DNA of 37,973 bases from Vicinamibacteria bacterium (GTDB lineage Bacteria; Acidobacteriota; Vicinamibacteria; Fen-336), in contig JAMPXO010000038.1 in assembly GCA_023701125.1 (NCBI GenBank), forward strand, positions 1 to 37,973, in the 5' to 3' direction. Below, piece after piece: positions 4,205 to 19,994 of the stretch. Within the stretch, counting starts at the first letter, position 1, and each line of letters opens with the position of its first letter. A model generated the notes under the pieces. The model was given only the letters and a program-made list of their open reading frames with translations, made no database searches and was not told where the DNA came from. The position numbers were made by a program, and so were the translations under genes.

Positions 4205-4209
4205 GGCGG

Positions 4210-4215
4210 AGGTTA
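4210..4215 (-). promoter_or_regulatory. Candidate -10 of a leaderless transcript (membrane protein gene)
   Basis: The minus strand reads TAACCT, ending five bases before the ATG at 4204. There is no Shine-Dalgarno. The geometry matches that at 2845-2850. Confidence 0.35.
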
Positions 4216-4250
4216 ACGCATCGCCCGCGGCGCGGAGTGGAGCGGCCCGC

Positions 4251-4256
4251 TATGAT
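4251..4256 (+). promoter_or_regulatory. Candidate -10 box TATGAT
   Basis: TATGAT matches five of six bases of TATAAT. It ends 21 nt before the TTG start at 4278 and 11 nt before that gene's GGGAGG, leaving room for a very short leader. No convincing -35 is visible. Confidence 0.45.
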
Positions 4257-4267
4257 CGGCGCTCGGC

Positions 4268-4273
4268 GGGAGG
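4268..4273 (+). promoter_or_regulatory. Shine-Dalgarno fixing a TTG start
   Basis: GGGAGG lies 4 nt before TTG at 4278. It favours this start over the in-frame ATG at 4203, which would sit on top of the divergent gene's own start codon. Confidence 0.6.
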
Positions 4274-4277
4274 CGCT

Positions 4278-5507
4278 TTGCTGAACTGGATCTGGGCGGC
4301 GTTCTTCTTCGTGGCCTTCGCGGCCGGGCTGTTCCAGTGGCTGGTGCTGGGCAACCCCGGGGTGTGGGCGGCGATGGTCGGCTCGACCTTCGACATGGCC
4401 AAGACCGGCTTCGAGATCTCGCTCGGCCTGACCGGCGTGATGTGCCTGTGGCTCGGCATCATGAAGGTCGGCGAGAAGGGCGGCGCGGTGGAGCTGGTCG
4501 CGCGCGGCTTCTCGCCGCTGCTGGCGCGCCTGTTCCCCGGCATCCCGGGCGGCCACCCGGCGCAGGCTTCGATCGTGATGAACATGTCGGCCAACATGCT
4601 CGGCCTCGACAACGCCGCCACCCCGCTGGGGCTGAAGGCGATGAAGGAGCTGCAGGAGCTCAACCCCGACAAGGACGTGGCCTCGAACGACCAGATCCTG
4701 TTCCTGGTCATCAACGCCTCGGCCATCACCATCATCCCGACGGCGATCATGACCTACCGCGCGCAGCTCGGCGCGGCCGATCCCACCGACGTGTTCGTGC
4801 CGCTGCTGCTGGCGACCTTCTGCTCCACCGCCGTCGGCCTGCTGGTGACCTCGATGGTGCAGGGGCTGAAGCTGACCCACCCGGTCACGCTCGCCTACCT
4901 CGGCGGCATCACGGCGCTGATCGGCGGCCTGGTCGCGTACTGCACGCAGCTCGATCGCACCGCCCTCGAGCAGCAGACGACACTGTTCGCCAACTTGTTC
5001 ATCTTCACGCTGATCGTCAGCTTCCTGCTGCTCGCGGCGCGGCGCGGGGTGGCGATGTACGAGGCGTTCGTCGAGGGCGCCAAGGAGGGTTTCGCGGTCG
5101 CCGTCGGCATCATCCCGTACCTGGTGGCGATGCTGGTCGCGATCGGCGTGCTGCGCGCGAGCGGCGCGCTCGACCTCGCGCTCGACAGCGTGCGGCTGGC
5201 GATCGGCGGCCTGGGCATCGACGCGCGCTGGGTGGACGCGCTGCCGGTGGCGATGATGCGGCCGTTCTCCGGCAGCGGCGCCCGCGGCCTGATGATCGAG
5301 ACGATGAAGACGCTGGGGCCCGACGCCTTCGCCAGCCGCCTGGCGTGCATCATCCAGGGCAGCACCGAGACGACGTTCTACGTGCTGGCCGTGTACTTCG
5401 GCTCGGTCGGCATCAAGAACACCCGCCACGCGATTGCGTGCGGCCTGATCGCCGAGTTCGCGGGCTTCGTGGGCGCCTTGTTCGCGGCCTACCTGTTCTT
5501 CGGCTAG
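4278..5507 (+). CDS. SpmA/SpmB-like nucleoside-recognition membrane protein
   Basis: A 409-aa integral membrane protein in which SpmA-like and SpmB-like halves are fused. Conserved segments include MNMSANMLGLDNAATPLGLKAM, NASAITIIPT and, in the second half, FSGSGARG and IIQGSTETTFYVLAVYFGSVGI. These are the Gate/nucleoside-recognition motifs. The family is named from Bacillus spore maturation, but in non-sporulating bacteria its role is unknown and it probably transports or senses a small solute. The TTG start gives LNWIWAAFFF as the first membrane segment. The 25 extra residues from the upstream ATG are polar and overlap the divergent gene. The next gene starts 10 nt downstream. Confidence 0.88.
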   Translation: MLNWIWAAFFFVAFAAGLFQWLVLGNPGVWAAMVGSTFDMAKTGFEISLGLTGVMCLWLGIMKVGEKGGAVELVARGFSPLLARLFPGIPGGHPAQASIVMNMSANMLGLDNAATPLGLKAMKELQELNPDKDVASNDQILFLVINASAITIIPTAIMTYRAQLGAADPTDVFVPLLLATFCSTAVGLLVTSMVQGLKLTHPVTLAYLGGITALIGGLVAYCTQLDRTALEQQTTLFANLFIFTLIVSFLLLAARRGVAMYEAFVEGAKEGFAVAVGIIPYLVAMLVAIGVLRASGALDLALDSVRLAIGGLGIDARWVDALPVAMMRPFSGSGARGLMIETMKTLGPDAFASRLACIIQGSTETTFYVLAVYFGSVGIKNTRHAIACGLIAEFAGFVGALFAAYLFFG

Positions 5508-5517
5508 ACGAGGGGCC

Positions 5518-6720
5518 GTGCCGCAGGCGCTGCGCCGCTTCGCCCCCGTCCTCGCGCTGTTCGCGATCTCGTTTCCGCTCTGGTACCTGGGGATGACCTG
5601 GCGCGGCGGCTCCGGCCTCCTCGACCACTCCCCGATCGACCAGCACGCGCTGCAGGCGCGAGCGTGGCTCGCGGGTCGGCTGGACCTCGACCGGGTGCCG
5701 CCGAGCCTGGAGATCGCGCACTTCGAGGGCCGCGCGTTCAACTCCTTCCCGCCGACGCCGAGCCTCGTCGAGCTGCCGCTGGTCGCGGCCTTCGGGCGGC
5801 GCACGCCCAACGGACTCGCCATGTACGGCTTCTGGCTGGCGGCGCTGTGCGCGATGCAGCACGTGCTCCAGCGGCGCGGGATGCCGCCCGTGCACGCGGG
5901 AGCTCTGGCGCTGGCGTTCGTGTTCGGCACCAACGTCTACGCCTCGTGCGTGCGCGCCAACGTGTGGGGCTGGGGCCAGGGCCTCGGCTTCTGCCTGGCC
6001 GTGCTCGGCCTGTCGCGGGTGATCGACAACAAGGGCTGCGGCTGGCGCGGCCCCGGGCCCGGCTACCTGCTGCTGGCACTCGCCGTCGGCTGCCGGCCTT
6101 TCTACCTGTTCATGGCGCCGCTGTTCGTGGCGCTCGACGGGAAGACCGGCCGCGGCGACGTGAAGCTCGCAGCGCGCGACGCGGTGCTGTGGATGGCGCC
6201 GTTCGGCGCGGCGCTGGCGGCGTTCAACTTCGCCCGCTTCGGCAACCCGCTGGAGTTCGGCCACAACTACCTGGCGTGGGCGCAGGCGCTGCCCGGCGGC
6301 ATCTTCGACCTGCGCTACGTCGGGCGGAACCTGTTCCACGCGACGCTGCGGCTGCCGGAGTGGGTGCCGGGCGGCGACCCGGTCCTCGCCTTCGACCCGT
6401 GGGGCACGGCGTTCTGGCTCAACAACACGATCTTCCTGTTCGCCCTGCGCGCGCTGGTGCGCGAGCCGCTCGACCCGTGGGTCCGCGCGACGGCCGCGCT
6501 GGCACTGACGCTGACCTGGTCGGGGCTGCTGCTGCACGAGACCAACGGCTTCCGCCAGTTCGGCTACCGCTTCCTGATCGACCTGCTGCCGACCGGCTTC
6601 GCGCTGCTCGCGCTGACGGCGCGCCGCTTCACGCCGGCGATGGCCGCCGCGTTCGCGTGGTCGCTGGCCGTGAACCTCTACGGCCTCGCGACCTGGAAAG
6701 AGATGCCGCGCCCGCTCTGA
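5518..6720 (+). CDS. Multi-pass membrane protein, GT-C glycosyltransferase-like
   Basis: A 400-aa protein starting at GTG, 10 nt after the nucleoside-recognition gene and probably co-transcribed with it. About ten hydrophobic segments are visible. An early extracytoplasmic loop carries HFEGRAFNSFPPTPSLVELPL, which resembles the loop after the first helix in GT-C/ArnT-like mannosyltransferase relatives. Another conserved-looking stretch is ANVWGWGQGLGFCLAVLGLSR. The canonical acidic pair of GT-C enzymes is not clearly present, so a transferase function is only suggested. It ends 6 bp from the convergent chaperone cluster. Confidence 0.7.
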   Translation: MPQALRRFAPVLALFAISFPLWYLGMTWRGGSGLLDHSPIDQHALQARAWLAGRLDLDRVPPSLEIAHFEGRAFNSFPPTPSLVELPLVAAFGRRTPNGLAMYGFWLAALCAMQHVLQRRGMPPVHAGALALAFVFGTNVYASCVRANVWGWGQGLGFCLAVLGLSRVIDNKGCGWRGPGPGYLLLALAVGCRPFYLFMAPLFVALDGKTGRGDVKLAARDAVLWMAPFGAALAAFNFARFGNPLEFGHNYLAWAQALPGGIFDLRYVGRNLFHATLRLPEWVPGGDPVLAFDPWGTAFWLNNTIFLFALRALVREPLDPWVRATAALALTLTWSGLLLHETNGFRQFGYRFLIDLLPTGFALLALTARRFTPAMAAAFAWSLAVNLYGLATWKEMPRPL

Positions 6721-6726
6721 CCCTCC

Positions 6727-9700
6727 TCAGCGCTTGCGCCGCAGCTCGCGGCGATGCACTCCGCGGCGGTCGCTGACGATCGGGCCGGCCAGCCGGTCGG
6801 GAGTCTCGAGCTCGAGCGTGACCTCGTAGGTCTCGCCGTCCAGGTCGCGCTCGCGGTAGGTCAGGACCTGGCCGTCGAACGAGACGTCCGAGTAGCGATC
6901 TCCGCTGCCCCCGCGGGCGAGGCGCACGCCGCCGCCCGCGTCGGCCGAGATGCGGACGGGATCGGGGTTCGGCTCGCCGTCCCAGTACTCGTGCCACTCG
7001 CCGACGAGCGCCTGCGCCGCCGCCGCGCCGTCCGAGGGCGGCACGGGCGCCGTGGCCGTCCCGCCGCGGAGCGTGGCCCACCAGGTCCAGCGCAGGCCGT
7101 TGACGTTCGAGCCGCTGCCCTCCATCCGCTGACCGCGGATCGTGCCCTTGTTCTCGGCGTACTGGCCGTTCATCTCCATGTAGACGGAGTCGCCGTCCTG
7201 GCGCCACGTGCCATTGCGGAAGCGACCGGTGCTGTAGTCGTACTCGAGCGTGCCGTCGGGGTGGAACGTGTACTCGTAGCGGCCGCCGGGAGTCTCCTCG
7301 CCCTCCCACGTGGTGCCGGCGAGTTGGACGAGGCCCGCGACGCTGTGGGCCACGGAAGCCGGGACCGGGGCCGCGGCCCAGCCGGGGTCGATGCGGTCGA
7401 GCGCCTCGCGCACGGCCTCGCGCACGGGCTGCTCCGGGTCGTCGCGGTACGCCATCAGCCCGGGCACCGCGTCTTTCGCCGCCGGCCCGAGCTCGCCGAT
7501 CGCGCGGGCGGCGATCGCGCGCCGCGTCGTGCCCGGTTCGCCCAGCGCTTTCAGGAAGATCGGCGCGTCGGCCGGGCCCGTCACGAACTCCTTGCCCATC
7601 CAGGCCACGGCGTCCTCCGCGGCGCGCCGGACCTGGTACTCCGGGTCGAGGCGCAGCCGCAGCAGCGCCTCGCGGTGCGGGGCCGCGCCGGCGCCCAGCG
7701 CGCCGAGGCCCCACGCGCCGTTGACGCGCCACGTGGAGTCGGACGACTCGAGGGCCGCGACGTAGACCGGCCGCGCGCGCTCCGGGTGGATCAGCCCCGC
7801 GCCGTGCAGCAGGCGGGTGGCCAGCGGGTCGCCGTTGGCATACGCCGCGAAGAGACCGCCGAAGAAGAACAGCACCAGCCCCGCGGCGACCGCGGCGGCA
7901 ATCGCCAGCCGACGCCGCCAGCGGCGGCGCACGACCTGGCGCGCGAGCGCCGGATCCACCTTCTCCAGGGCCTCGAACGCGAGGGCACGGACCTGTTCGT
8001 CGGCGTCCTTCGCCGCGGCCTCCGCGAGCGCGGGGCCGGCCGTGCGCAACGACGCGGCCAGCTCGGCGTGACCCGCGGCCTGACCGGCCATCGCGCCCAG
8101 CGCGCGGGCCGCGGCGCGACGCGGCGGCACGACCGGGTCGGCCAGCAGGTGGGCCAGGCCACGAACGGCGGCCGGGGTCGGCGTGCAGACCTCGGGCAAC
8201 GCGGTGGCCGCGGCCTCGCGCACCTCCGCGTCTGCGTCGCGCAAGGCGGCGCCGAGGGCGGGCCCCGCGGTGCGGGCCGCACGGCCGATCGCCTGCAGCG
8301 CGCTCACGCAGGCCAGGCGGGAGGCCGAGTCGGGACCCTGCAGGCCGCGGGCGAGGTCGGGCACGGCCTCGATCGCCGCGGGCAGCTTCGCCCAGCCGGC
8401 GTCGATCCGGGCCAGCGCCTGCTGCGCCGCCCGGGCCACCGCGCCCGTGCGGTCGGCGAGCAGCGCAGCGAGGACCGGGATCGCGGCCGGGTCGGCGAGT
8501 GCGCCGAGCGCCTCCGCGGCGGCGGAGCGGACCTCCTTGTGCGGGTCGTGCAGCGCCGTGGCGAGCGCGGCGCCGGCCGACGTGGCAGCGGGGCCCAACG
8601 CACCCAGCGCCTGCGCGGCCGCGCGGCGCGCCTTCGGTTGCTCGGCGCCCAGCGCGGCGATCAGGTCGGGCAGTGCCTCGCGGGCGCCCTCGCTGCGCGC
8701 CCAGTCGGCGTCGATCTGCACCAGCGCCGCCGGCGCGACCGCCGCCAACCCGGCCTCGGGGTCCGCCAGCAATCGCACGAGCGGGCCGATCGCGCGCGGG
8801 TCGCGGACCGCGCCCAGGGCGTTCAACGCCGCCTCGCGCACCGCCGGCTCGGGGTCGTGCAACACCATCAGCAACGACGGCACCGCGGCCTTGCCGAGGC
8901 CGACGGCGGCGGTGCAGGCCAGCGCCCGCACCCGGGCGTGTTGGTGGCGCAACGCGAACGTGATCTCGTCGGCGGCGGCGGCGCCCAGAGCCTTCAGCGC
9001 CTCGGCGGCGCCTTCGCGCACCGGCGCCTTCTCGTGATCGAGCGCCGCGGCCAGCGCGGCAGCGGCGGGCGCGCCCTGGCGGCCGAGCGCCGTGGCCGCG
9101 GCGCGACGCACGTCCTTGTCGCCGTCGGCGAGCGCGTGGATCAGCGCCGGGATCGCACGGCCCGAGGGGTCCTGGCCATGGCCGAGCGCCTCGGCGGCGC
9201 GCGTGCGGTCGTCGGCCGAGCCCTGGCTCAGCGCCTTCAACAACTCGGGCGTGCCTGCCAGGCCGAGCCGCATCCGCGTGTTGTGGACCGAGGGCAGGCT
9301 GGTGCCGATGTCCGAGCCCAGCTTCTTCAGCGCGTCGAGGTTCTCCTTGACCGCGGTGTCGTCGGGTGCCAGGTCCGCGGCGACGACGAGGTCCCCCGCC
9401 GCGTCCACCATCGCCTCGCGCATGCGGCCCTTGCGCGCGTCGCGCTCGCGGTCGTCGCGGCTGTTGCAGTCCGGGCACACGATGACCGGAATGTCCTTGA
9501 ACGTGAACTTGTAGAAGCGGCTGTAGATGCGCGAGCCGCAGGCCATGCAGTGGATCTCGATGTTGGCGTCGCCGGCCATGCCGATGCGGGCCGCCATCGC
9601 CGTCATCACGAACGTGTGGTCGCCGCGGCCGGCGCGCTCCGCGATGCGGGCGATGATCCAGGGCGGCTCCTGGGCGATCGCCATCGCCGGCTTCAGCTTC

Positions 9701-11238
9701 GCCATCGAGCGCTTGTTGAGGGCGCTGGCCAGGGCCTGGCCGACGACCTTGCGCTGCGGCTCTGGCAACTCGCCGCAGGCGCGGCCCATGTACACGCCGA
9801 CCAGCGGGCCGATCGACTCCTCCCACTCCTGGGTCTCGGCGCGGGCGCGCGCGCGCTCGGCGATCTCCAGCACCGGCGCCGGCAGGTCGTAGTAGCCCGC
9901 CGCGCACCAGTCGCCGCCGGTTTCCGTGTTCTTGCGGACGATGTCGAGGTTGTCCTGGACCCGCTGCTTCGTCGCCGCCGACGAGGCGGTCGCGAGCACC
10001 GGACCCAGCAGCTCGACGCAGCGGCGCCAGTCCTGGGTCTTGTTGCCGTAGGCGATCTGGCACGAGAGCGCCTTCAGTGCCACGTCGTCGTGGGCGGCCT
10101 CGCGCACCAGGTCGCCCGGCTCGAGCAGCGTGTCGAGCACGCGCAGCAGCGGCGTCGTCTGCTCCAGCAGGCGGCCGACCAGCGCGTCGGCGTGGACGGG
10201 GTCGCGGTCCGCCTCGGCCTCGGCAGTCGTGCACAGGGTCTTGATGCGCTGCCGCTGCGGCTCCAGCACGCGGTGGAGGGTGTCGACGACCAGCGCCGAG
10301 CGCTTCGGCGCCGCGGCGCCCTTGCGCTTGCGCGGCCCGCCTTTCGCCTTGACCGTCTTCTTGCACGCCGGGCACCACACCTGGCCCACCAGCTTGTCCA
10401 GGTCGACCGGTCCCTCGCACACCGCGCAGCGCGGCGCCTCGACGACGGCCGCGGGAGCCGGGGCCGGCGCCTCGTCGGCGGGCGGCGCATCCCACAGGTC
10501 GAGGTGGTGCACGTGGCGGGCGGCCGCGTCGAGGGCCGCGGACTCCGCCGCCTTCGCGGCCAGCTCGGCGCTGACCGAGAGCACCGCGCGCGGCAGCGAG
10601 GAGACGATGCCGTCGGCCTGCTCGGGGGTCAGCCGCGGGTCGGACAGCTCGGCCAGCCGTGCTCGCAACCGCTCGCGCAGGCCGGGGTCTTCGACCAGCC
10701 GGCGCCAGCGCCGGATCGCGTCTTCCCAACGCAGCTCGGTGCCATCGGTCGCGCCCTTCTCCTCGGCCTCGAGGGCCTGCAGGTGAGCGAGCACGGCGAG
10801 GTCGTGACGGGCGGCGAGCGCGGTGGCGCCGCCGGCCTGCTCCTGTTCCTGCCAGATCCGCTGCGCGGTCTCGAGGTCGCCCTTCGCCAGCGCCAGCAGG
10901 GCGGGGTCGGCGGCGCTGCGCTCGGCGGGCCAGAACCAGAACAGCTCGTCGACGATGCGGTCTTCGGGGTCGTGCAGCCGGCGCAGCGCCTCGCGGATCG
11001 CGTCGGAGTCGGGCGGCGGCTCGAGCGCCAGCGCGCCGCGGCCGTCGCCGCCCGGTGTCGCCAGCTTCTCCATCAGCTTCAGCCGATCGGCGCGGCGGGT
11101 GACGTCCCGGCCGCTGGCGTCGACCGGAAGGCCGGTGACGCGGAAGGCGTTGCGGCGGTAGAGATCGGGGTGGGCCGCCTCCATCAACGGCGCGAAGGCC
11201 ACGCCCCGTTCGCTGTCGGCACCGGCCGCTTCGCCCAT
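6727..11238 (-). CDS. J-like / zinc-ribbon / HEAT-repeat transmembrane protein with lipocalin-like C-terminus
   Basis: A 1503-aa protein and the last gene of the chaperone cluster. Residues about 29-52 (RNAFRVTGLPVDASGRDV) follow the J-domain pattern but lack HPD. Conserved WxWP-type sequence (ELFWFWP) follows near 98-104. Two zinc ribbons are present: C271/C274/C289/C292 and C564/C567/C588/C591. HEAT repeats fill about 650-1095, an RRRWRRR-flanked membrane helix spans about 1110-1133, and further HEAT repeats run to 1290. A lipocalin-like module at about 1303-1390 (GTTWEGEE, NGTWRQDGDSVYMEMN) is followed by a second beta domain. The positive-inside rule puts the N-terminus in the cytosol and the last 370 residues in the periplasm. 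The ATG at 11238 has GGAG 7 nt upstream. The same frame is open upstream, but that is shadow sequence of the Clp gene. The likely role is a membrane-anchored co-chaperone or scaffold (inference). Confidence 0.85.
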   Translation of the reverse strand: MGEAAGADSERGVAFAPLMEAAHPDLYRRNAFRVTGLPVDASGRDVTRRADRLKLMEKLATPGGDGRGALALEPPPDSDAIREALRRLHDPEDRIVDELFWFWPAERSAADPALLALAKGDLETAQRIWQEQEQAGGATALAARHDLAVLAHLQALEAEEKGATDGTELRWEDAIRRWRRLVEDPGLRERLRARLAELSDPRLTPEQADGIVSSLPRAVLSVSAELAAKAAESAALDAAARHVHHLDLWDAPPADEAPAPAPAAVVEAPRCAVCEGPVDLDKLVGQVWCPACKKTVKAKGGPRKRKGAAAPKRSALVVDTLHRVLEPQRQRIKTLCTTAEAEADRDPVHADALVGRLLEQTTPLLRVLDTLLEPGDLVREAAHDDVALKALSCQIAYGNKTQDWRRCVELLGPVLATASSAATKQRVQDNLDIVRKNTETGGDWCAAGYYDLPAPVLEIAERARARAETQEWEESIGPLVGVYMGRACGELPEPQRKVVGQALASALNKRSMAKLKPAMAIAQEPPWIIARIAERAGRGDHTFVMTAMAARIGMAGDANIEIHCMACGSRIYSRFYKFTFKDIPVIVCPDCNSRDDRERDARKGRMREAMVDAAGDLVVAADLAPDDTAVKENLDALKKLGSDIGTSLPSVHNTRMRLGLAGTPELLKALSQGSADDRTRAAEALGHGQDPSGRAIPALIHALADGDKDVRRAAATALGRQGAPAAAALAAALDHEKAPVREGAAEALKALGAAAADEITFALRHQHARVRALACTAAVGLGKAAVPSLLMVLHDPEPAVREAALNALGAVRDPRAIGPLVRLLADPEAGLAAVAPAALVQIDADWARSEGAREALPDLIAALGAEQPKARRAAAQALGALGPAATSAGAALATALHDPHKEVRSAAAEALGALADPAAIPVLAALLADRTGAVARAAQQALARIDAGWAKLPAAIEAVPDLARGLQGPDSASRLACVSALQAIGRAARTAGPALGAALRDADAEVREAAATALPEVCTPTPAAVRGLAHLLADPVVPPRRAAARALGAMAGQAAGHAELAASLRTAGPALAEAAAKDADEQVRALAFEALEKVDPALARQVVRRRWRRRLAIAAAVAAGLVLFFFGGLFAAYANGDPLATRLLHGAGLIHPERARPVYVAALESSDSTWRVNGAWGLGALGAGAAPHREALLRLRLDPEYQVRRAAEDAVAWMGKEFVTGPADAPIFLKALGEPGTTRRAIAARAIGELGPAAKDAVPGLMAYRDDPEQPVREAVREALDRIDPGWAAAPVPASVAHSVAGLVQLAGTTWEGEETPGGRYEYTFHPDGTLEYDYSTGRFRNGTWRQDGDSVYMEMNGQYAENKGTIRGQRMEGSGSNVNGLRWTWWATLRGGTATAPVPPSDGAAAAQALVGEWHEYWDGEPNPDPVRISADAGGGVRLARGGSGDRYSDVSFDGQVLTYRERDLDGETYEVTLELETPDRLAGPIVSDRRGVHRRELRRKR

Positions 11239-11264
11239 GGTGAGACTCCGTTTCCGGCCCGCGT

Positions 11265-14222
11265 TCAGGCCAGCTCGACGTCTTCGCCCGACAGTCGTGC
11301 CCGCACGACGACGCCGCGTTCGAGGCCGCGGGCCCGGGTGCGGACCGGGCCGCCGATCGCGCGCTCGAAGCGGCGCAGGAAGCCGCGCGCGCCTTCGGCT
11401 TGCGCCAGCCCCTCGGCCACGAGTCGCTCGCGCAGCGCGGGCTCGACCTCGAGCGCCCCGCCGCCGTGCGCGTCCAGCTCGGCCGCCAGCGCCGCGAGCT
11501 GGCGCTCGAGCAGTGCTTCGTAGTCGGCGGCCGCGAGCGGCGCGAACGCCACCACGCGGTCGATGCGGGCGAGGAACTCGGGCCGGAAGGCGCGCTCGAG
11601 GTGGCCGTCGGCGCCAGGCTCCGCCTCGCCGGCGGCCGAGCCCACGAAGCCGATCGTGCCCTCGCCCTGCGGCGCGTTGCAGGTCAGGACGAACAGGTGG
11701 CGGCGGAAGTCGACGCAGCGCCCGCGCGAGTCGGTGGCCTGGCCCTGGTCGAACACCTGCAGGAACCAGTCGGCGACGCCGGGCGCCGCCTTCTCCATCT
11801 CGTCGAGCAGGATCAGGCCCTGCGGGTGGCCCTCGGTGAAGCGGAACAGCGCGCCCGGCTCCTCGTGGCCGACGAAGCCCGGCGGCGCGCCGGACAGCCG
11901 CGCGAGGTCGTGGCGCTCGCCGTACTCGCTCATGTTGAAGCGGCCGAGGGCGCGACCCCCGGCGTCGAAGAGGGCGCGGGCGAGGGTTTCGGCGGCCAGC
12001 GTCTTGCCCACGCCCGTGGGCCCGCTGAACAGCAACACCGCCAGCGGCCGCGGCGAGGCCGGGTCGCGGGTGGCGGCGGCGGCCAGCGTCTCGCGGATCG
12101 CGGCGATGGCCGGTTCCTGGCCGACCAGCGCCCTGCGCAACGCGGCCGCCGCGCGGTCCGCGTCGAGCGCGCCCGCGGCGGTGACCGCGATCCCGTACTG
12201 CTCCTCGAGCACGGCCTCGATCTCGCGCGGCCCGACCCGCGGTGGCTGCTTCGCCGGCGCCGCCTCCTTCTCCGACAGTGACGACACGCAGGCGGCGGCG
12301 GCGGCGTTCTCCAGCAAGTCGATCGCCTTGTCGGGCAGCCGCCGCGCGGGCAGCAGCCGGGCCGAGAGGGTGACCGCGGCGGCGATCGCCTCGGGCGCCA
12401 ACTGCACGTGCTGGCGCTCCTCGATCCGCCGCGCCCACGTCTCGCACATCGCCAGCGCCTCGGCCTCGGACGGTTCGCCGAGCCGCAACAACTGGAACCG
12501 ACGCACGAAGGCGGCCTCGCCCTTGACGTGGCGCTCGAACTCCTCGGTCGTGGTCGCGCCGATGCAGCGGAAGTCGTCGCGGGCGAGCGCCGGCTTCAGG
12601 ATGTTGGCGACGTCGATCGCGCCCTCGCCGCCGCCTGCGCCCATCACCAGGTGGATCTCGTCGAGGAACAGCACGAGGTCGGGGTCCTCGCAGGCCTCGG
12701 ACAGCAGGCCCTTCAGCCGCTGCTCGAGGTCGCCGCGATAGCGGGTGCCGGCGACGAGGTCGGACACGCGCAGCTCCACGATCCGCAGCCGGCGCAGCAC
12801 CTCGCGGGCGTCGGGTGCCACCAGCCGCTGCGCGAAGCCCTCGACCAGCGCGGTCTTGCCGACGCCGGCGTCGCCGACCAGCAGCACGTTGCGCTTCGAC
12901 GTGCGTTGCAGGTAGCGGGCGAGGGTGCGCATCTCGGCCTGGCGGCCGATCACGGGCGAGAGCCGACCGGCGCGGGCCAGCTCCGTGAGGTCGCGGCCGA
13001 GCGGCGCGCCCAGCTCGCCCTTCAGCGCGGCCCGTCGGCGGGGCTCGGGCTCTCGTTCGACGGGGGCTGCGGAGCTCGCGTGAGGCGCGCCGGGCTCGTA
13101 CGGCGCGGCCTTGTCGGAGGCCGGCGGCTTGACGAAAGCCGCCTGGCCGATCTCGCCCACCTCGAACACCTCGACGGGCTCGTCGAGGCCCTTCACCTTG
13201 TAGAGGCCGTGCGAGCGCCACTCGATCGGCCCGAGGTCCGCGGGCGGCGTCGCAGCGAGACCCTCGCGGGCGGCGTCGTGCACGCCGCGGTCGGTCAGCA
13301 CCTGGTTGCCCGCGGCCAGCGACGAGATCCGCGATGCGGTGTCGATGGTGATGCCGAACAGCGGGTCGGAGAGCCCGCTGCCGCCGGCGGCCTTGCTCAG
13401 CACCGGGCCCGCGAACATCCCCATCCGCACCTTGAGCCCGACCTGCGCCAGGTCCTTGTGCGCGCGCAGCCGCGCCTGCACCGCGAGGCAGAAGCGCACC
13501 GCGTCCTCCTCCGCGGAGAACGCGAGCAGGAAGGCGTCGCCGATGGTCTTGATCTCGCGGCCGCCGGGATGCGCCTGCAACAGGTCGCGGAAGACGTTGT
13601 CGTGGGCGCGGAAGATGCGGGCGGCCTCGACGTCGCCGTAGCGGCGCTTGATCGCCATCGAGCCTTCCATGTCGGTCAGCACCAGCGTCACCCGTTCCAG
13701 AGCGAAGCGGGCGACGAACTCGTCGATCCGGGTCTCCCACTCCAGCGGGACCTTGGGCGACGCATGGCCGTCGAGGAACGGCGCGACGTCGGGCGGCGGC
13801 GCCTGCAGCATCGCCCGCAGCAGGTGGACGGGAGCGATCGCGAGGGCCGGGCCCTCGAGCGCGAACGGCGCGGCGGCCTCCAGCAGTTCTCGGGTCGACG
13901 CGGCGAGCGAGAGCCGGCGGATCGGGCGCTCCTCGTCGTCGGGTCGGGCGGCGCGGCGGACCTTGCGCCGCAGCCGGGTCAGCTCGGACGCGTCCATGCC
14001 GAGCACCGCGCGGGCCTCCGCGCCCTGCGCCCGCAGCTCGCGGGCGACGTCCGGCGCGACGCCGGCGCCTTCGAGGTCGGTGTCGAGCGCGTCGTCCGCC
14101 AGCTTGAGCAGCGTCAACAGCACGTGCAGCGGCGCGATCTCCTCGCGGCCGGCGAGGCAGGCCTCGCCGTTCGCGAGCGAGAGCAGCGTCTGCGCGGCCG
14201 CGCTGGTCGGGATCGCCTTCAC
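11265..14222 (-). CDS. Clp-type AAA+ unfoldase with embedded class III nucleotidyl cyclase domain
   Basis: A 985-aa protein. Residues 1-150 resemble the Clp_N double repeat. Residues about 178-355 form a class III cyclase domain: metal Asp184 (VLTDMEGSMA), Lys225/Asp229 (EIKTIGDAF), Asp286, and D294...R298 (TIDTASRI), where Asn is usual at 294. The first AAA+ module has Walker A GDAGVGKT (450-457), pore loop RYRGDLE and DEIH (521-524). The second has GPTGVGKT (734-741), pore loop GAPPGFVG and DEMEK (807-811). The long ClpB middle domain is absent. An IGF tripeptide (857-859) sits where ClpA/ClpC carry the ClpP-docking loop. GTG at 14222 overlaps the previous stop by four bases (GTGA); the open frame upstream is shadow. 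It probably unfolds or disaggregates proteins under cyclic-nucleotide or nucleotide-dependent control (inference). Confidence 0.92.
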   Translation of the reverse strand: MKAIPTSAAAQTLLSLANGEACLAGREEIAPLHVLLTLLKLADDALDTDLEGAGVAPDVARELRAQGAEARAVLGMDASELTRLRRKVRRAARPDDEERPIRRLSLAASTRELLEAAAPFALEGPALAIAPVHLLRAMLQAPPPDVAPFLDGHASPKVPLEWETRIDEFVARFALERVTLVLTDMEGSMAIKRRYGDVEAARIFRAHDNVFRDLLQAHPGGREIKTIGDAFLLAFSAEEDAVRFCLAVQARLRAHKDLAQVGLKVRMGMFAGPVLSKAAGGSGLSDPLFGITIDTASRISSLAAGNQVLTDRGVHDAAREGLAATPPADLGPIEWRSHGLYKVKGLDEPVEVFEVGEIGQAAFVKPPASDKAAPYEPGAPHASSAAPVEREPEPRRRAALKGELGAPLGRDLTELARAGRLSPVIGRQAEMRTLARYLQRTSKRNVLLVGDAGVGKTALVEGFAQRLVAPDAREVLRRLRIVELRVSDLVAGTRYRGDLEQRLKGLLSEACEDPDLVLFLDEIHLVMGAGGGEGAIDVANILKPALARDDFRCIGATTTEEFERHVKGEAAFVRRFQLLRLGEPSEAEALAMCETWARRIEERQHVQLAPEAIAAAVTLSARLLPARRLPDKAIDLLENAAAAACVSSLSEKEAAPAKQPPRVGPREIEAVLEEQYGIAVTAAGALDADRAAAALRRALVGQEPAIAAIRETLAAAATRDPASPRPLAVLLFSGPTGVGKTLAAETLARALFDAGGRALGRFNMSEYGERHDLARLSGAPPGFVGHEEPGALFRFTEGHPQGLILLDEMEKAAPGVADWFLQVFDQGQATDSRGRCVDFRRHLFVLTCNAPQGEGTIGFVGSAAGEAEPGADGHLERAFRPEFLARIDRVVAFAPLAAADYEALLERQLAALAAELDAHGGGALEVEPALRERLVAEGLAQAEGARGFLRRFERAIGGPVRTRARGLERGVVVRARLSGEDVELA

Positions 14223-15082
14223 GGCGCGCCCCGGGGCGCCAGGCGCAACTCCACGCTGCGGCGCGCACGGCGGGCGGAGGGATCGAGGCCGGGCGGCACT
14301 TCGGTCGCGGCCCGCAGCGTCACGGCCTCGGGCGGGAACGGCGCGTGCTCGCGCAGCGCATCGAGGGCCACCGCGGCGCGGGCCAGGCCCAGCGCCACGT
14401 TGTCTCGCCACGCGGCGCCAGGGCGCAGCGTGCGGTCGTCGGCGAGGCCGGTCACCGTCAGGGCGTGGGTGGCGGCGATCGGGGCGAGCTGGCGGCCGAG
14501 CTCAACCAGTGTCTCGCGCGCGCCGGGCCGCAGCTCGCTGCCCCGCGAGAAGAGGCCCTCGGGGAAGCGGATCACGCGGGCGCCGGCCTCGGTGGAGACG
14601 ACGGAACCAGCGACGTCGAGGGCGGGGAGCGCGGGTGCCGGGGCGAGAGCGAGGCCGGGCTCCGGGCCTCCCCCCACCGCCCGACCGGCCCGCTCCCCGG
14701 TGTCGGTGATGCGGGCCGGGAAGATCAGGAAGGCGGCGATCAGGATCGCCAGCACCGCGAGCACGTGCCCGCCGCCGTGCTTCGTGCGCAGCGCGGCAAT
14801 GCGTCGCAGGCCCGCGGCGGCAGGCGCGTGGTCCGGGGCCGTGCGCCGCAGCTCCGTCCACGACGCCTCGGCGTCGTCGAGGCGACCCTGCTGGGCGCGG
14901 ATGCGGGCCAGCAGGTCGAGCGCCTCCGGGCCGCCGTCCGCGGCACCGACTTCGCGCACGACAGACGCAGCCGCCTCGAGCCGCCCCTCGCGCGCCAGCT
15001 CCGCCGCGCGCGCCAGCCGCACGGCGGCCAGCGCCTGGCGGGCCTGGCTGGCCGCGTCCATCGGGCTCGCGACGTGGAGCAA
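14219..15082 (-). CDS. TPR-like / transmembrane / OmpA-like protein
   Basis: About 287 aa. The cytosolic N-terminal 95 residues look like TPR helices (ARAAELAREGRLEAAASVV, LDDAEASWTELRRTAPDHAPA). One membrane helix follows (VLAVLAILIAAFLIFPA, about 106-122), then a proline-rich linker. The C-terminal domain has OmpA-like order: IRFPEGLFSRGSELRPGA, LTVTGLADD, DNVALGLARAAVALDAL, and ARRARRSVELRL. An OmpA-like domain in this topology usually faces the periplasm and may touch peptidoglycan. The start is TTG at 15082 because TAGGAGGTG pairs well with 16S rRNA five bases upstream. The GTG at 15088 overlaps that site and is a poorer choice. The gene lies between the Hsp70 and Clp genes and overlaps the Clp start. 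Confidence 0.82.
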   Translation of the reverse strand: MLHVASPMDAASQARQALAAVRLARAAELAREGRLEAAASVVREVGAADGGPEALDLLARIRAQQGRLDDAEASWTELRRTAPDHAPAAAGLRRIAALRTKHGGGHVLAVLAILIAAFLIFPARITDTGERAGRAVGGGPEPGLALAPAPALPALDVAGSVVSTEAGARVIRFPEGLFSRGSELRPGARETLVELGRQLAPIAATHALTVTGLADDRTLRPGAAWRDNVALGLARAAVALDALREHAPFPPEAVTLRAATEVPPGLDPSARRARRSVELRLAPRGAP

Positions 15083-15087
15083 GGGCA

Positions 15088-15093
15088 CCTCCT
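15088..15093 (-). promoter_or_regulatory. Strong Shine-Dalgarno overlapping the Hsp70 stop codon
   Basis: AGGAGG on the minus strand shares bases with the Hsp70 stop TAG (15094-15092) and is spaced 5 nt from TTG at 15082. This decides the start and suggests translational coupling. Confidence 0.65.
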
Positions 15094-17590
15094 AGCGAAT
15101 CAACCCCGAGAGCACCTTGTCGCGGTCCTCGTCGCCCGCCGGCAGCAGACCGGCGAGCTGGCGGACCGCGGCCTTCAGCGCCTCGACGTCGTTGTTGTTG
15201 ATCGCGCGGCGGGCCTGGGCGATGTACTCGTCCGCGCGCGCGGGATCGGTCATCAGGTGCTTCTTGGTCTCCAGGAAGCCGAGGCGGCCGACCCAGAAGC
15301 CGGGCTGGCGCAGCACGATCACCGCGCCGAGCCGGTCCATCTCCTGGACGCGGCCGCGGAGCAGGTCGGGGTCGCGCTCCTTGACGGCGCGGCGCACGTC
15401 CTGCTCGAGCGCGGCGAACGCCTGCTTCTCCTCCGCGGTGGCCTTGAAGTCGGGGTCGTTGACGATCTTGCGCTCGACCTCCACTTCTTTCTCCGCGGAG
15501 GCGACCAGCGCAGGCCACTCCAGGGCGTCTTCGACCTCGTCGATCGCCGACTTCAGGTCGAGCAGCCGCTTCTCGCACTTGTCGGCCGCGTCGGGATCGC
15601 CCGCGCCCGCCGCCAGCGAACCTTCGACCTCGCTGACCGCGTGCTCGCGCTCGATCCGCGCCAGCGCCTCCCCCGCCCGCGGGTCGCCGGTCTGGCGGCC
15701 CTTGTCGCGCGCCTCCTCCAGCCGCTTCTTCTGCCGCTCCACGTCGTTGCGCAGCTCGTCGGGGTGGCGCGCCTGCTTGCGGTACTCGTCGTAGCTGATG
15801 ACCTTGCCGAACTCGTTGTCGAGGATCGGCAGGTAGGCGGTCGCCTTCAGCAGCCGCGAGGCGTCGATCTCGATCGTGACCTCGACCTCGCTGCCGGCGG
15901 GCACGTCGCGCTGGACCTGGTCCGAGGTGATCTCCAGGTTGCCGATCAACTGGTTGCGGTCCGCGCGCGGGTTCTGGCCCTCCATCACCGGGATCTTGAT
16001 CGAGTGGTGGGCGTTGCCGCGGCGCACGTCGATCGCGGTGCGCAGCACCTTCAGCCGCCGCGCGGGCAGCGGCGTGCCCTTGTCGAGCAGCCACTCCATC
16101 TCGTTGTTGGCGAGGGCGACGCCGACCGAGTGGATCAGCGGCGGGTCGGTGATCGACAACCCGACCGTGTAGACGAGCTGGTCGGGGCTGACCGGCAGCA
16201 GCCGGCCGGTCTGGTCGCAGAGCTCGATGCGGAAGGTGTTGGGTCGCCCCTTCTCCGCCCACAGGCTGGTCATGAAGCCGCCGTTCGCGGCGATCGCCGT
16301 GCGCCCGCTGCGCCACGGCGGCCGGGCCTCGGCGTTGACGAACTCGACCGTGTAGTCGGAGACGTCGGCGCCGTCGGGGCTGGTCACCCGGCCGCCGACC
16401 AGCGGCTCGGTGTCCGCGCCGACCGGCTTGTACTCGAGCTGGATCTGGCACTGGCCCGCGACCGGGGCCGCGACGGACGTCGACTCCAGGCGCTGGGTGC
16501 CGGAGAAGATCGCGGCGCCGCGGGCGACCACGGTCAGCGGGTCGATCGAGAACTCGAGCGGGATGCCGAGGCCCTCGGCCAGCCGCTGGCGCAGGTACGG
16601 GGTCAGCGTCGGGCCGCCGACGAGCAGCACCTTCTCGACGTCGCCCGCGCCCAGCCGGCGCTCGGACAGCACCTTGCGGCAGATGTTGATCGCACGCTCG
16701 ACGTAGGGCTCGATCAGAGGCTCGACGTCGCTGCGCCGCAGCTCGTACTCGAACAGCACGCTCTCGCCGCGGTCGTCCTGGCACAGGCCGTCGATCGCGA
16801 TCTCGACCGAGCCCTCGCGCGACAGCCGGATCTTGGCCAGCTCGGCGTTCTGCTTGAGCTTGGCGATCGCCCCCGCGTGCTTGAGGTTGGCCCGCGACAG
16901 GTCGCTCACGGGGTGCTGCTTGTGGACGGCGGGGATCAACAACTGCTCGACGATCGACCAGTCGATCAGCTTGCCGCCGAGGTGGTTGTCGCCGCCGTGG
17001 TTGACGACCTGGATCACGCCGTCGCGGACGTGGATCACGGCCGCGTCGAAGGTGCCGCCGCCGAAGTCGTAGACGAGCCAGAACACCTTGTCGCTCTCGC
17101 TCTGGAAGCCGTAGGCGAGGGCGGCCGCCACGGGCTCCTGCAGCAGCGGGCTGGCGACGAAGCCGGCTCGCTGCGCCGCCTGCTTGGTCGCCTCGCACTG
17201 CGGCAGCTCGAACGCCGCAGGCACCGTGATCACGGCCGCCTCGACGTTCTCGCCCGAGCGCTGGGCCACGTCGCGCTTGAGCTCCTTCAGCACCTCGGCG
17301 GACAGGTCCTCGGGCCGCAGCGCGTGGCCGCTGCGCTTGAACGTGTACTCGCGGCCGGTGCCCATCTGCAGCTTGAACTCGCTGAAGGCGTTCTCCGGGT
17401 CGATCACCAGCCGCTCGTAGGCGCGGCGGCCGACACGCAAGGCGCCGGTCTTGTCCTGGAACACCGCGGAAGGCGTGTACTCGAAGCCCTCGTTGTTCTT
17501 GAACACGTGGGGCTCGGTGCCCTCGAGCACCGCGATGCTGCTGTTGGTGGTGCCGAGGTCGATGCCGTAGTCGATCGTCGCCCGTGCCAT
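15092..17590 (-). CDS. Hsp70 (DnaK-like) chaperone with extra beta domain and long helical tail
   Basis: An 832-aa Hsp70 of a non-housekeeping class. The nucleotide-binding domain spans 1-365, with phosphate loops GIDLGTTNSS (9-18) and VYDFGGGTFD (173-182) and adenosine motif VLLVGGPTLTP (321-331). About 125 beta-rich residues (375-500) with no counterpart in DnaK separate it from the substrate-binding beta domain (505-590, IKIPVMEGQN, VTIEIDASRLLKATA). A 240-residue charged helical tail follows (RQKKRLEEARDKGRQ, RRAINNNDVEALKAAVRQLAG). No EEVD ends it. The ATG at 17590 has GGAG 8 nt upstream and lies 3 nt after the GrpE-like gene. Partners are expected to be that exchange factor, the J-like protein and the Clp protein. 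Confidence 0.95.
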   Translation of the reverse strand: MARATIDYGIDLGTTNSSIAVLEGTEPHVFKNNEGFEYTPSAVFQDKTGALRVGRRAYERLVIDPENAFSEFKLQMGTGREYTFKRSGHALRPEDLSAEVLKELKRDVAQRSGENVEAAVITVPAAFELPQCEATKQAAQRAGFVASPLLQEPVAAALAYGFQSESDKVFWLVYDFGGGTFDAAVIHVRDGVIQVVNHGGDNHLGGKLIDWSIVEQLLIPAVHKQHPVSDLSRANLKHAGAIAKLKQNAELAKIRLSREGSVEIAIDGLCQDDRGESVLFEYELRRSDVEPLIEPYVERAINICRKVLSERRLGAGDVEKVLLVGGPTLTPYLRQRLAEGLGIPLEFSIDPLTVVARGAAIFSGTQRLESTSVAAPVAGQCQIQLEYKPVGADTEPLVGGRVTSPDGADVSDYTVEFVNAEARPPWRSGRTAIAANGGFMTSLWAEKGRPNTFRIELCDQTGRLLPVSPDQLVYTVGLSITDPPLIHSVGVALANNEMEWLLDKGTPLPARRLKVLRTAIDVRRGNAHHSIKIPVMEGQNPRADRNQLIGNLEITSDQVQRDVPAGSEVEVTIEIDASRLLKATAYLPILDNEFGKVISYDEYRKQARHPDELRNDVERQKKRLEEARDKGRQTGDPRAGEALARIEREHAVSEVEGSLAAGAGDPDAADKCEKRLLDLKSAIDEVEDALEWPALVASAEKEVEVERKIVNDPDFKATAEEKQAFAALEQDVRRAVKERDPDLLRGRVQEMDRLGAVIVLRQPGFWVGRLGFLETKKHLMTDPARADEYIAQARRAINNNDVEALKAAVRQLAGLLPAGDEDRDKVLSGLIR

Positions 17591-17593
17591 GGT

Positions 17594-18157
17594 TCACGCT
17601 CCAGGAGGGCCCGCGGCGGCGGGCGTGCCCACGATCACCTCGCCCATCTGCAGCGGGGCGTCGCGGAAGTAGAGGGTCGGCTTGACGGTCTCGATCACGG
17701 TCTCGCGGGCGAGGCCGGGCGTCGGCTGGAAGGCGAGCACGCGCAGCGCGAGCCCCTCGTCGAACGGTGCGCCGGTGTGGTCGATCACCTGCAGCCCGGC
17801 CTGGGCCAGCACGTCCCACGTCGACTGCAGGTGGCGATACGGGCGCCGCATGTTCTCCAGCGGGCGGTCGCTGCCCGGTTCCAGCATCTTCTGGCGCAGC
17901 CGCCACAGGCCGGTCGCCGCCTCGGCCAGAAACGCGAAGCGCTCGGCCGGCGGCGCGGCGGGAAGGGCGGCGGCACTCGCGCTCCCCGCGCTGGCGGTCA
18001 CCGCAGCGGCGACCGCGGCAGACAGCGATTGCAGCAGCGGCGCCCAGTCGGGCGCCTCGATCCGGAACTCGGCCGGCTGCCGCCGCTGACGCAGTTCGGC
18101 CAGCCGCGCGGCCCACGTCCACGCTCGCTGTCCGTCCGTCCCGATCGCGAGGGCCAT
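17594..18157 (-). CDS. Divergent GrpE-like nucleotide exchange factor
   Basis: 187 aa. The C-terminal 75 residues follow the GrpE order: a helix ending LWRLRQKMLEPG, NMRRPYRHLQSTWDVLAQ, then the beta domain AGLQVIDHTGAPFDEG (120-135), ETVIETVKPTLYF and GEVIVGTPA. This matches the canonical Gv.vId..GepFDP...tVvev...Gy.......r.a.ViVg. The N-terminal half is Ala-rich and shorter than the long GrpE coiled coil, so the dimer stalk may be reduced or absent. It should release ADP from the Hsp70 encoded 3 nt downstream. The start ATG follows GAGGAG with only a 3-nt gap, so the exact start is slightly uncertain. The kinase gene ends 30 nt upstream. Confidence 0.78.
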   Translation of the reverse strand: MALAIGTDGQRAWTWAARLAELRQRRQPAEFRIEAPDWAPLLQSLSAAVAAAVTASAGSASAAALPAAPPAERFAFLAEAATGLWRLRQKMLEPGSDRPLENMRRPYRHLQSTWDVLAQAGLQVIDHTGAPFDEGLALRVLAFQPTPGLARETVIETVKPTLYFRDAPLQMGEVIVGTPAAAGPPGA

Positions 18158-18187
18158 GCCCTCCTCACGTCCGGCGCGCGGGCCGCG

Positions 18188-19297
18188 CTACATCGCCACG
18201 CCCCGCCGCCACAGCCGGACCTGGTTCGCGTAGCGCTCGCGCAGGTCCGGCCACTTGTTGAACGCCTCTTCCATCTGGTCGGCCGCGTCGGCGAAGCGGC
18301 CGCGCTCGCGGGCCAGGGAAACGGCCTGGCGCGCCATCGTCTCGGCCTGGCGCTGGTCGCCCGGCGTGTGCATGCCGAGCGCGCTCTTCGACTCGTCGAG
18401 GCCGCTGCCCTTGGCCCGCGCGCCCGGCGCGCCGGCGCCGGCGGGCTGCCAGCGCTCGAGGTCGGCGAGCAGCTCGCGCGCGGAGGGGTGGCGCTCCTCG
18501 GGTTTCAGCGACAGCGCGCGGAACAGGATCTGGTCGAGGCCCGCGTCGGCCTTGGCGTTGAGTCGCGAGGGCGGGATCAGCGGCCGCTCGAAGCGACCCG
18601 GGTCGGCGGCCGCCTCGGTGTCGCCCAGGCCCGCGTAGGGCAGGCGGTCGGTCAGCAGCAGGTACAGCGTGCAGCCGAGCGCCCACACGTCGCCCGCCGC
18701 GGAGTCGGTCTGGAAGTCGCGCAGCGCCTCGGGGGCCTTGAACGAGCGGGTGCCGCGCGCGGAAGCCAGCAGCGTCAGCGGGTTGACGCGCTTGGCGAGC
18801 CCGAAGTCGCTGATCCGCGCCTGCAGGCCGTTCTGGTCGTAGCCGACCAGGATGTTCTGCGGCTTGATGTCGCGGTGGATGATCGGCGGCACCTCGGCGT
18901 GGGCGAGAGCCAGCCCGCGGCAGACCTGGCGCAGGATCTCGACCGCGGTCTCGACCGGCACGAACTGGGCGCCGTGCGAGCGCCAGAACTGCTCGAGCGA
19001 ACCGCCGGCGACGTACTCCATCGTGAAGAAGCCGCAGGTGCCGCGCGAGGTCTCGGTCACGTTGGCGTCGAACACGCGGACGATGTTGGGGTGGCCGATG
19101 CGCGACAGCAGGATCGCCTCGCCCAGCATCTGCTCGGTCTCCTCCATGGTCATGCCGACCATCTTGAAGACCTTCATCGCCTGGCGGCCGAGGAAGCGGT
19201 GCTTGACGCGATAGACCTCGGCGAACGCGCCTTCGCCGAGCGGACGTTCGACCTCGTAGGTTCCGCGGATGAGCTGCCCCTCGCGAAGCAGGCTCAT
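18188..19297 (-). CDS. Cytosolic Ser/Thr protein kinase, first gene of the chaperone operon
   Basis: A 369-aa Hanks-type kinase with an intact core: glycine loop GEGAFAEV (21-28), Lys42 in AMKVFK, HRDIKPQN (141-148), DFG (164-166) and APE (188-190). After the kinase lobe come about 85 residues with a linker and TPR-like helices (MARQAVSLARERGRFADAADQMEEAF). No membrane segment is visible, unlike the two kinases at 30323-34422. The ATG at 19297 has GGGAG 6 nt upstream. The same frame is open for 148 more codons but holds no kinase sequence. It heads a 12.6 kb co-directional run, so it may phosphorylate the chaperones or their co-factors (inference). Confidence 0.93.
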   Translation of the reverse strand: MSLLREGQLIRGTYEVERPLGEGAFAEVYRVKHRFLGRQAMKVFKMVGMTMEETEQMLGEAILLSRIGHPNIVRVFDANVTETSRGTCGFFTMEYVAGGSLEQFWRSHGAQFVPVETAVEILRQVCRGLALAHAEVPPIIHRDIKPQNILVGYDQNGLQARISDFGLAKRVNPLTLLASARGTRSFKAPEALRDFQTDSAAGDVWALGCTLYLLLTDRLPYAGLGDTEAAADPGRFERPLIPPSRLNAKADAGLDQILFRALSLKPEERHPSARELLADLERWQPAGAGAPGARAKGSGLDESKSALGMHTPGDQRQAETMARQAVSLARERGRFADAADQMEEAFNKWPDLRERYANQVRLWRRGVAM

Positions 19298-19310
19298 GGC
19301 CTGCTCCCGA

Positions 19311-19324
19311 CAACCCTCGGGTTG
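19311..19324 (-). promoter_or_regulatory. Inverted repeat in the leader of the chaperone operon
   Basis: A 6-bp inverted repeat, CAACCC-TC-GGGTTG, lies 14 nt before the kinase start codon and just upstream of its Shine-Dalgarno. It could be an operator or a small RNA hairpin. Confidence 0.3.
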
Positions 19325-19412
19325 GCCGTGCGATGGGCCACGGCGACGCTCCCGGTCCTGTGGTGAGGTTTCGGGCGGTGGGGCGAGCGTCCCCACCCCC
19401 GTTTCGATCGTG

Positions 19413-19443
19413 ACGATACGCCTCGTCCCCCCCGCCCTGTCCA
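19413..19443 (-). promoter_or_regulatory. Candidate promoter of the chaperone operon
   Basis: On the minus strand TGGACA (19443-19438) is followed after 19 nt by TATCGT (19418-19413), about 115 nt before the kinase start. The same TATCGT occurs upstream of the amidohydrolase gene. An odd-length dyad, ATCGTGACGAT (19407-19417), overlaps the -10. I see neither a CIRCE element nor a clear sigma-32 box. Confidence 0.4.
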
Positions 19444-19492
19444 GCCCTTTGCGGAGCGACGGCGCGGGGCCGGGGTGACGGCCGCGGCGTGG

Positions 19493-19498
19493 TAGCGT
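19493..19498 (+). promoter_or_regulatory. Candidate -10 of a leaderless transcript (DUF2721 gene)
   Basis: TAGCGT ends 7 nt before ATG at 19506 with no Shine-Dalgarno between. Confidence 0.38.
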
Positions 19499-19505
19499 CG
19501 CGGCC

Positions 19506-19994
19506 ATGGCCGAGAACGCCGCGCTCTCCCTGCTCTCCGCGATGATCACGCCGGCCGTGCTGATCTCCGCCAGCGGCATGCTGATCCTGTCGACCGCCAG
19601 CCGGCTGGCGCGGATCGTCGACCGCGTGCGCACGCTCGCCCGCCAGATCGAGGAGACGGGCCAGGGCCCGGACGACGAGCTGTTGGCCGAGCGTCGCGCC
19701 GAGCTGGAGCGCCAGATCGGCACCCACACGACGCGCGGCAAGCTGATCCAGGCCTCGCTGACCTCGCTCTACGTGTCGCTGGCGCTGTTCGTGGCCGCGA
19801 CCGTCGTCATCCCGCTGGTCGCCCTGGCCGGCGCGCTCGCCTACCTGCCGGTCGCGTTCGGCGTCCTCGGCACGCTGTCGCTGTTCCTCGGCACGCTGTT
19901 CCTGATCCGCGAGACAGGCATGGCACTGACCTCGATCGGCGAGGAGATGGCCTTCGCCCGCCGCATCGCGGATCGCTCCCGCCGCGCCCGGTAA
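19506..19994 (+). CDS. DUF2721-family membrane protein
   Basis: 162 aa. The opening segment PAVLISASGMLILSTASRLARIVDRVRTL is the signature of DUF2721: a membrane helix followed by a basic amphipathic helix. A charged coiled segment follows (about 45-75), and then two more membrane helices (about 88-112 and 114-135). The family is common but its function is unknown. The start has a -10-like hexamer seven bases upstream and no Shine-Dalgarno. It is divergent from the chaperone operon; the 208 bp between them hold the operon's candidate promoter. Confidence 0.85.
   Translation: MAENAALSLLSAMITPAVLISASGMLILSTASRLARIVDRVRTLARQIEETGQGPDDELLAERRAELERQIGTHTTRGKLIQASLTSLYVSLALFVAATVVIPLVALAGALAYLPVAFGVLGTLSLFLGTLFLIRETGMALTSIGEEMAFARRIADRSRRAR

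Follow-up and report, generated by a model that had tools for sequence, protein, structure and literature searches.

The window analysed here, a stretch of 37,973 nucleotides (contig JAMPXO010000038.1 of a Vicinamibacteria bacterium), contains a six-gene module encoding a Ser/Thr kinase, a GrpE-like protein, an Hsp70, a TPR/OmpA-like protein, a Clp protein and a J-like protein lacking the HPD motif, arranged as follows.

6722 to 19486, no strand: whole module, 12.8 kb
18188 to 19297, minus strand: Ser/Thr protein kinase gene, 369 aa
17594 to 18157, minus strand: GrpE-like gene, 187 aa
15092 to 17590, minus strand: Hsp70 gene, 832 aa
14219 to 15088, minus strand: TPR/OmpA-like gene, 289 aa, with an N-terminal TPR part, one hydrophobic segment and a C-terminal OmpA-like part
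11265 to 14222, minus strand: Clp gene, 985 aa, with N-domain, class III cyclase, D1 and D2
6727 to 11238, minus strand: J-like/HEAT gene, 1503 aa, with a J-like N-terminal domain without HPD, and HEAT repeats

The Clp gene begins with a GTG codon at 14222 and overlaps the stop of the preceding gene; the part of the longer surrounding open reading frame that lies upstream of this GTG is an out-of-gene reading. The Hsp70 neighbour pointed out in an earlier sequence-only reading of this DNA is located one gene away from the Clp gene, and the order kinase, GrpE-like, Hsp70, TPR/OmpA-like and then Clp, all on one strand, is conserved in three out of three genomes (that of the window, G028 and G269). 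Identities to the other two module genomes are 69–73% for the kinase, 54% for the GrpE-like protein, 63–65% for Hsp70 and 37% for the TPR/OmpA-like protein. In G028 and G269 the J-like gene separates the kinase gene from the GrpE-like gene; in the window it comes last and includes HEAT repeats. The Hsp70 (PF00012, 279 bits) possesses a canonical nucleotide-binding domain followed by a substrate-binding-like part, and an extra segment of ~110 aa (about aa 370–485) sits between the two. The GrpE-like protein matched PF01025 with 17.1 bits, under the cut-off of 25.8. The J-like domain of the HEAT protein (10885–11238, LYRxNAFRVxGxPV) is conserved in the three genomes, all of which lack HPD, and its profile similarity to J domains is weak; it may represent a degenerated J domain that cannot trigger Hsp70. 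A gene identified by eye as resembling an ECF-type sigma factor (L064 4102–4902) is located just upstream of the module kinase in G269. Promoter and terminator scans revealed nothing above chance. An anti-phage system was rejected, the PADLOC matches being generic AAA+ and kinase only, and the distant Hsp70 relatives in G015 and G195 (35–37%) were rejected as further modules, no other module protein being found at those loci.

Same-genus genome G306 has no module, and the counterparts of the left flank (3263–6721) and the right flank (19487–19990) lie there just 144 bases apart (L207 6287–6431). Another genome of the genus, G307, carries other DNA at the module site, 5.7 kb with transporter-type genes including a sodium/proton exchanger (L206 9994–15689). 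The empty site in G306 together with the unrelated DNA in G307 indicates that the 12.8-kb module comes or goes as a block, and its location is a variable chromosomal site.

The Clp protein itself is composed of the following parts.

13773 to 14222, minus strand: N-domain, aa 1–150
13104 to 13730, minus strand: class III nucleotide cyclase domain, aa 165–373, between the N-domain and D1
12273 to 13019, minus strand: D1, the first AAA+ module (GDAGVGKT, LVLFLDEIH, pore RYRGD, arginine finger RRF)
12129 to 12314, minus strand: D1–D2 linker, 62 aa, without a ClpB-type coiled-coil middle domain
11268 to 12128, minus strand: D2, the second AAA+ module (GPTGVGKT, LILLDEMEK, pore GFVGH, RPEFLARID, sensor-2 GAR)

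Walker A and B, the aromatic pore loops and the arginine-finger motifs are intact in both D1 and D2, and the sensor-2 GAR is present. The N-domain is kept in both orthologues (from G028 and G269) and weakly matches another, divergent Clp that this genome encodes; a Pfam search with it returned no Clp_N match. AlphaFold2 modelling of the whole protein resulted in a mean pLDDT of 82.3, with the cyclase, D1 and D2 confident, and displayed no coiled coil of the middle-domain type. Comparing D1–D2 of the model with ClpC, ClpA and ClpB chains gave similar fits (Z 27–34 for full-length rows), and since the three types match about equally, fold comparison by itself cannot place the protein. The window Clp probably assembles as a hexamer.

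The domain between the N-domain and D1 matched PF00211 with 48.1 bits (cut-off 21.9, E 1.3e-12), and its nearest NCBIfam subfamily is TIGR04510 (peptide-modification cyclase). It is absent from both orthologues, and no other Clp with a cyclase domain was seen in the phylum genomes searched. Folded alone it reached a pLDDT of 86.9, and the model superimposed on M. avium Ma1120 with a Z of 22.8 and an rmsd of 2.0 over 165 residues at 31% identity. Taking the residue roles in Ma1120 from PMC4215837, we found both metal Asps (D184 and D229), the Lys (K225) and the Arg (R298) kept; the second substrate-specifying Asp (Asp157 of Ma1120) is Pro287 in the window Clp, and position 164, an Ala in Ma1120 and the transition-state Asn in most cyclases, is Asp294. 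Ma1120 itself is an active enzyme without the usual Asn (PMC4215837). Judged from these residues, cyclic-nucleotide synthesis by the domain is possible, not assured. We also considered that the protein may be mainly a signalling device, in which the AAA+ ring would be a scaffold or sensor for the cyclase, cAMP or cGMP would be made once unfolded protein reaches the Hsp70 module, and proteolysis would be secondary. The well-modelled cyclase fold and its retained D184, D229, Lys225 and Arg298 are consistent with such a device, as is the presence in the module of a kinase and a membrane-type TPR/OmpA-like protein, but both orthologues manage without the domain, and Pro287 and Asp294 at the substrate-specifying Asp and usual Asn positions make its activity doubtful. 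We regard this explanation as improbable.

The IGL/F loop is a ClpP-docking element, and the corresponding region of D2 is located as follows.

11673 to 11693, minus strand: FVLTCNA, D2 sensor-1 strand, aa 844–850
11613 to 11675, minus strand: putative docking loop, aa 850–870, predicted flexible
11646 to 11654, minus strand: IGF tripeptide at the ClpP-docking position, aa 857–859

FVLTCNA is followed by PQGEGTIGFVG, so that the GEGTIGFVG first noticed here was read exactly, with IGF inside the interval then given (11600–11720). The tripeptide occupies the same loop as the IGL of ClpA. It begins 8 residues past the sensor-1 Asn, and 10 and 12 residues past it in the two orthologues; the distance is 11 residues in ClpA, which makes the loop of the window Clp 3 residues shorter before the motif. 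In the AlphaFold2 model pLDDT falls below 50 at aa 855–867 around IGF, a predicted disorder that fits a flexible docking loop, as expected. The orthologues share 59% (G028) and 53% (G269) identity with the window Clp over D1–D2. Poor conservation of IGF among orthologues had been named beforehand as grounds for abandoning the ClpP-partner reading; a three-way alignment revealed that IGF is unchanged in all three proteins, the only ones known, whereas nearly all other columns from the sensor-1 Asn to the next helix vary.

We compared these loops with a control alignment of 39 double-ring Clps, comprising those of 15 same-class genomes, E. coli ClpA and ClpB, a verrucomicrobial ClpC and others. 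[ILMV]G[FLI] was present in 24 of the 25 non-ClpB Clps (linkers of 57–115 aa) and in none of the 14 ClpBs, even in loose form (linkers of 176–180 aa), which all lack the motif. The sole non-ClpB exception comes from contig C88 of the window's own genome (L045 7006–9327), where the Clp has a short linker, has lost its docking loop and reads RCF in a changed arginine-finger region of D1. Viral contigs provided a further 80 Clps, which are general Clps and not orthologues of the window Clp; 76 have the motif and three more read VGY or IGY, all 80 having linkers of 54–117 aa. Short linkers and [ILMV]G[FLI] thus go together in double-ring Clps, a rule overlooked in the sequence-only reading, and IGF is what the architecture of the window Clp would lead one to expect, not an oddity. 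That IGF is a functionless chance tripeptide is very improbable: the composition of the window Clp predicts the loose motif [ILMVY]G[FLI] in ~6% of 16-residue stretches, but exact IGF in only ~0.15% per sequence, yet it recurs in three of three diverged loops, and the loose form is missing from all 14 ClpB loops. In the orthologous Clp of G269 (L043 6138–8462) the D2 Walker A (GADHVGKT) and Walker B (LILLSSWNK) are degenerate and IGF is kept, indicating that the motif is able to outlive a working D2.

ClpB requires its middle domain for DnaK, and the absence of this domain from the window Clp, reported earlier, was confirmed by measurement. Between PDKAIDL of D1 and LVGQE of D2 the linker spans 62 aa, compared with 58 aa in E. 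coli ClpA (57–58 in most ClpAs) and 176 aa in E. coli ClpB; the ClpA, ClpC-like and ClpB-like proteins of the same genome have linkers of 58, 110 and 179 aa, respectively. Phylogenetic analysis grouped the window Clp and its two orthologues into one clade (100/100) on a long stem outside ClpA, ClpB and ClpC, the ClpA clade being supported at 100/100 without the window Clp. In the AU test, joining the clade to ClpA or to ClpB gave p 0.19 each, and neither was rejected. Identity as ClpA was rejected by a score of 449 bits against an NCBIfam equivalog cut-off of 993 (TIGR02639) and by the position outside the ClpA clade, identity as ClpB by 453 bits against 1232, the missing middle domain and the presence of IGF, identity as ClpV (TssH) by 438 bits against 885, and identity as ClpC or ClpIa by the 62-aa linker, which is not of the half-length middle-domain type (~110–115 aa). 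Besides the window Clp, the genome encodes a true ClpA (C77, above the cut-off), a ClpC-like protein, a ClpB-like protein and the degenerate Clp of C88.

Orthologues of the window Clp, this copy included, numbered three among 193 genomes of the class, with 396 phylum genomes searched too. Clps of G310 and G137 (E 1e-116 to 1e-118) were rejected as orthologues, belonging to other subfamilies without the module neighbourhood. No orthologue was found in viral contigs by single-protein query or in plasmids at E 1e-90, and the 10 loci matched in genome contigs were stand-alone cyclases, ClpCs of the ordinary type and, in one case, a different AAA+ protein, none of them orthologous.

These data bear on the main rival explanation, in which the protein would be a ClpP-independent disaggregase or assembly remodeller served by its own Hsp70, GrpE-like and J-like set, with IGF a relic inherited from an ancestor resembling ClpA or ClpC. 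A conserved module centred on Hsp70, an orthologue that retains IGF beside a dead D2, and a tree that allows grouping with ClpB as well as ClpA all agree with it. However, the DnaK-binding middle domain of ClpB is missing, known stand-alone disaggregases are without the motif (PMC11006417), and a relic should change along with the residues around it, whereas IGF stays constant within its loop. We hold this explanation to be possible, though on balance unlikely.

Among Hsp100 proteins, ClpB refolds with Hsp70, and ClpA, ClpC, ClpE and ClpX dock ClpP to degrade. Each of the three module genomes has a ClpP gene, none of them inside the module. The one ClpP of the window's genome has an intact Ser-His-Asp catalytic triad and, at the residues that we take to line the docking pocket, a mostly hydrophobic surface; the equivalent of E. 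coli Phe112 is a Ser, as it is in congeners without the module. The earlier judgement that the protein looks more like a ClpP partner holds for its build (IGF loop, no middle domain) and is joined by a ClpP with an intact triad; docking as such is predicted from the sequence. The IGL/F motif is essential for working with ClpP and is absent in ClpB, ClpG and ClpL (PMC11006417), and mutating the VGF of ClpE abolished interaction with ClpP (PMC13125188).

We consider it probable that the window Clp is a double-ring Hsp100/Clp unfoldase that docks ClpP, the contact being made through IGF, and that the Hsp70 set of its module supplies it with substrates or controls it. The Hsp70, GrpE-like and J-like proteins would bind or prepare substrates and the module Hsp70 would hand them over to the Clp, which would thread them through D1 and D2; the IGF loop would dock the organism's ordinary ClpP, and the threaded substrates would be degraded, not refolded. 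The likeliest role of the kinase and the inserted cyclase domain would be to control the machine or to signal what state it is in. An invariant IGF in a diverged loop, a motif that tracks short linkers and shuns ClpB, the model with its disordered IGF loop, the ClpP of the genome, the published work on the motif, the three-genome synteny and the clean empty site in a congener argue for this explanation. The strongest point against it is the IGF still present in the G269 orthologue with its degenerate D2; the small number of orthologues (three among the 193 class and 396 phylum genomes), the shortened loop before the motif, the Ser at the Phe112 position, and a module that lacks clpP and contains an Hsp70, a neighbour that usually means refolding, also count against it. 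A bolder version, which we regard as rather unlikely, is a horizontally moving Hsp70-to-ClpP conveyor, in which a kinase-controlled Hsp70, GrpE-like and J-like set would pass substrates to the IGF Clp and on to ClpP, with up to six cyclase domains per ring here coupling unfolding to cyclic-nucleotide signalling.

A conserved Hsp70 set beside a Clp of ClpP-docking type raises the question of a direct Hsp70-to-protease hand-over in bacteria, and a nucleotide cyclase built into a Clp would directly link protein quality control to second-messenger signalling. The first reading had noticed neither the cyclase domain nor the kinase, GrpE-like and J-like genes around the Clp, and had also missed that the module is a discrete unit and that the clade lies outside ClpA, ClpB and ClpC. 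Literature searches for a Clp–cyclase fusion and for such an Hsp70–kinase–Clp operon found no report; the fusion and the kinase/Hsp70/Clp block were described nowhere in the literature searched and are new relative to it. Additional Clps, some with a docking loop and some without, are already known, for example ClpI (PMC10149685).

Compared with known systems, the window Clp resembles ClpA in having no middle domain (62 versus 57–58 aa linker), an IGF/IGL loop, two intact AAA+ modules and a model that fits ClpAP chains (Z about 27–31), but it shares only ~37–38% D1–D2 identity with ClpA, possesses a divergent N-domain, a cyclase insert and an Hsp70 module, and occurs in a genome with a separate true ClpA. 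By description, not by tree, it is like ClpIa of Actinomycetota, an extra double-ring Clp class beside ClpB and ClpC with an LGF-type loop, a variable N-domain and a patchy distribution (PMC10149685); ClpI, however, retains a middle domain of ClpC length, and no cyclase is mentioned for it (PMC10149685). ClpE is comparable as an accessory partner of ClpP whose loop reads VGF and which acts on misfolded protein, but it has a coiled-coil middle domain and a different N-domain (PMC13125188). As for ClpB with DnaK, GrpE and DnaJ, an Hsp100 is encoded alongside Hsp70 and GrpE/J-like partners, whereas the window Clp has IGF and no middle domain, and the J-like protein of the module is without HPD. 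Finally, the inserted domain shares its fold, metal Asps, Lys and Arg with class III adenylyl cyclases of the Ma1120 type (PMC4215837), and differs from Ma1120 in Pro for Asp157, in Asp at position 164 and in being fused into a Clp.
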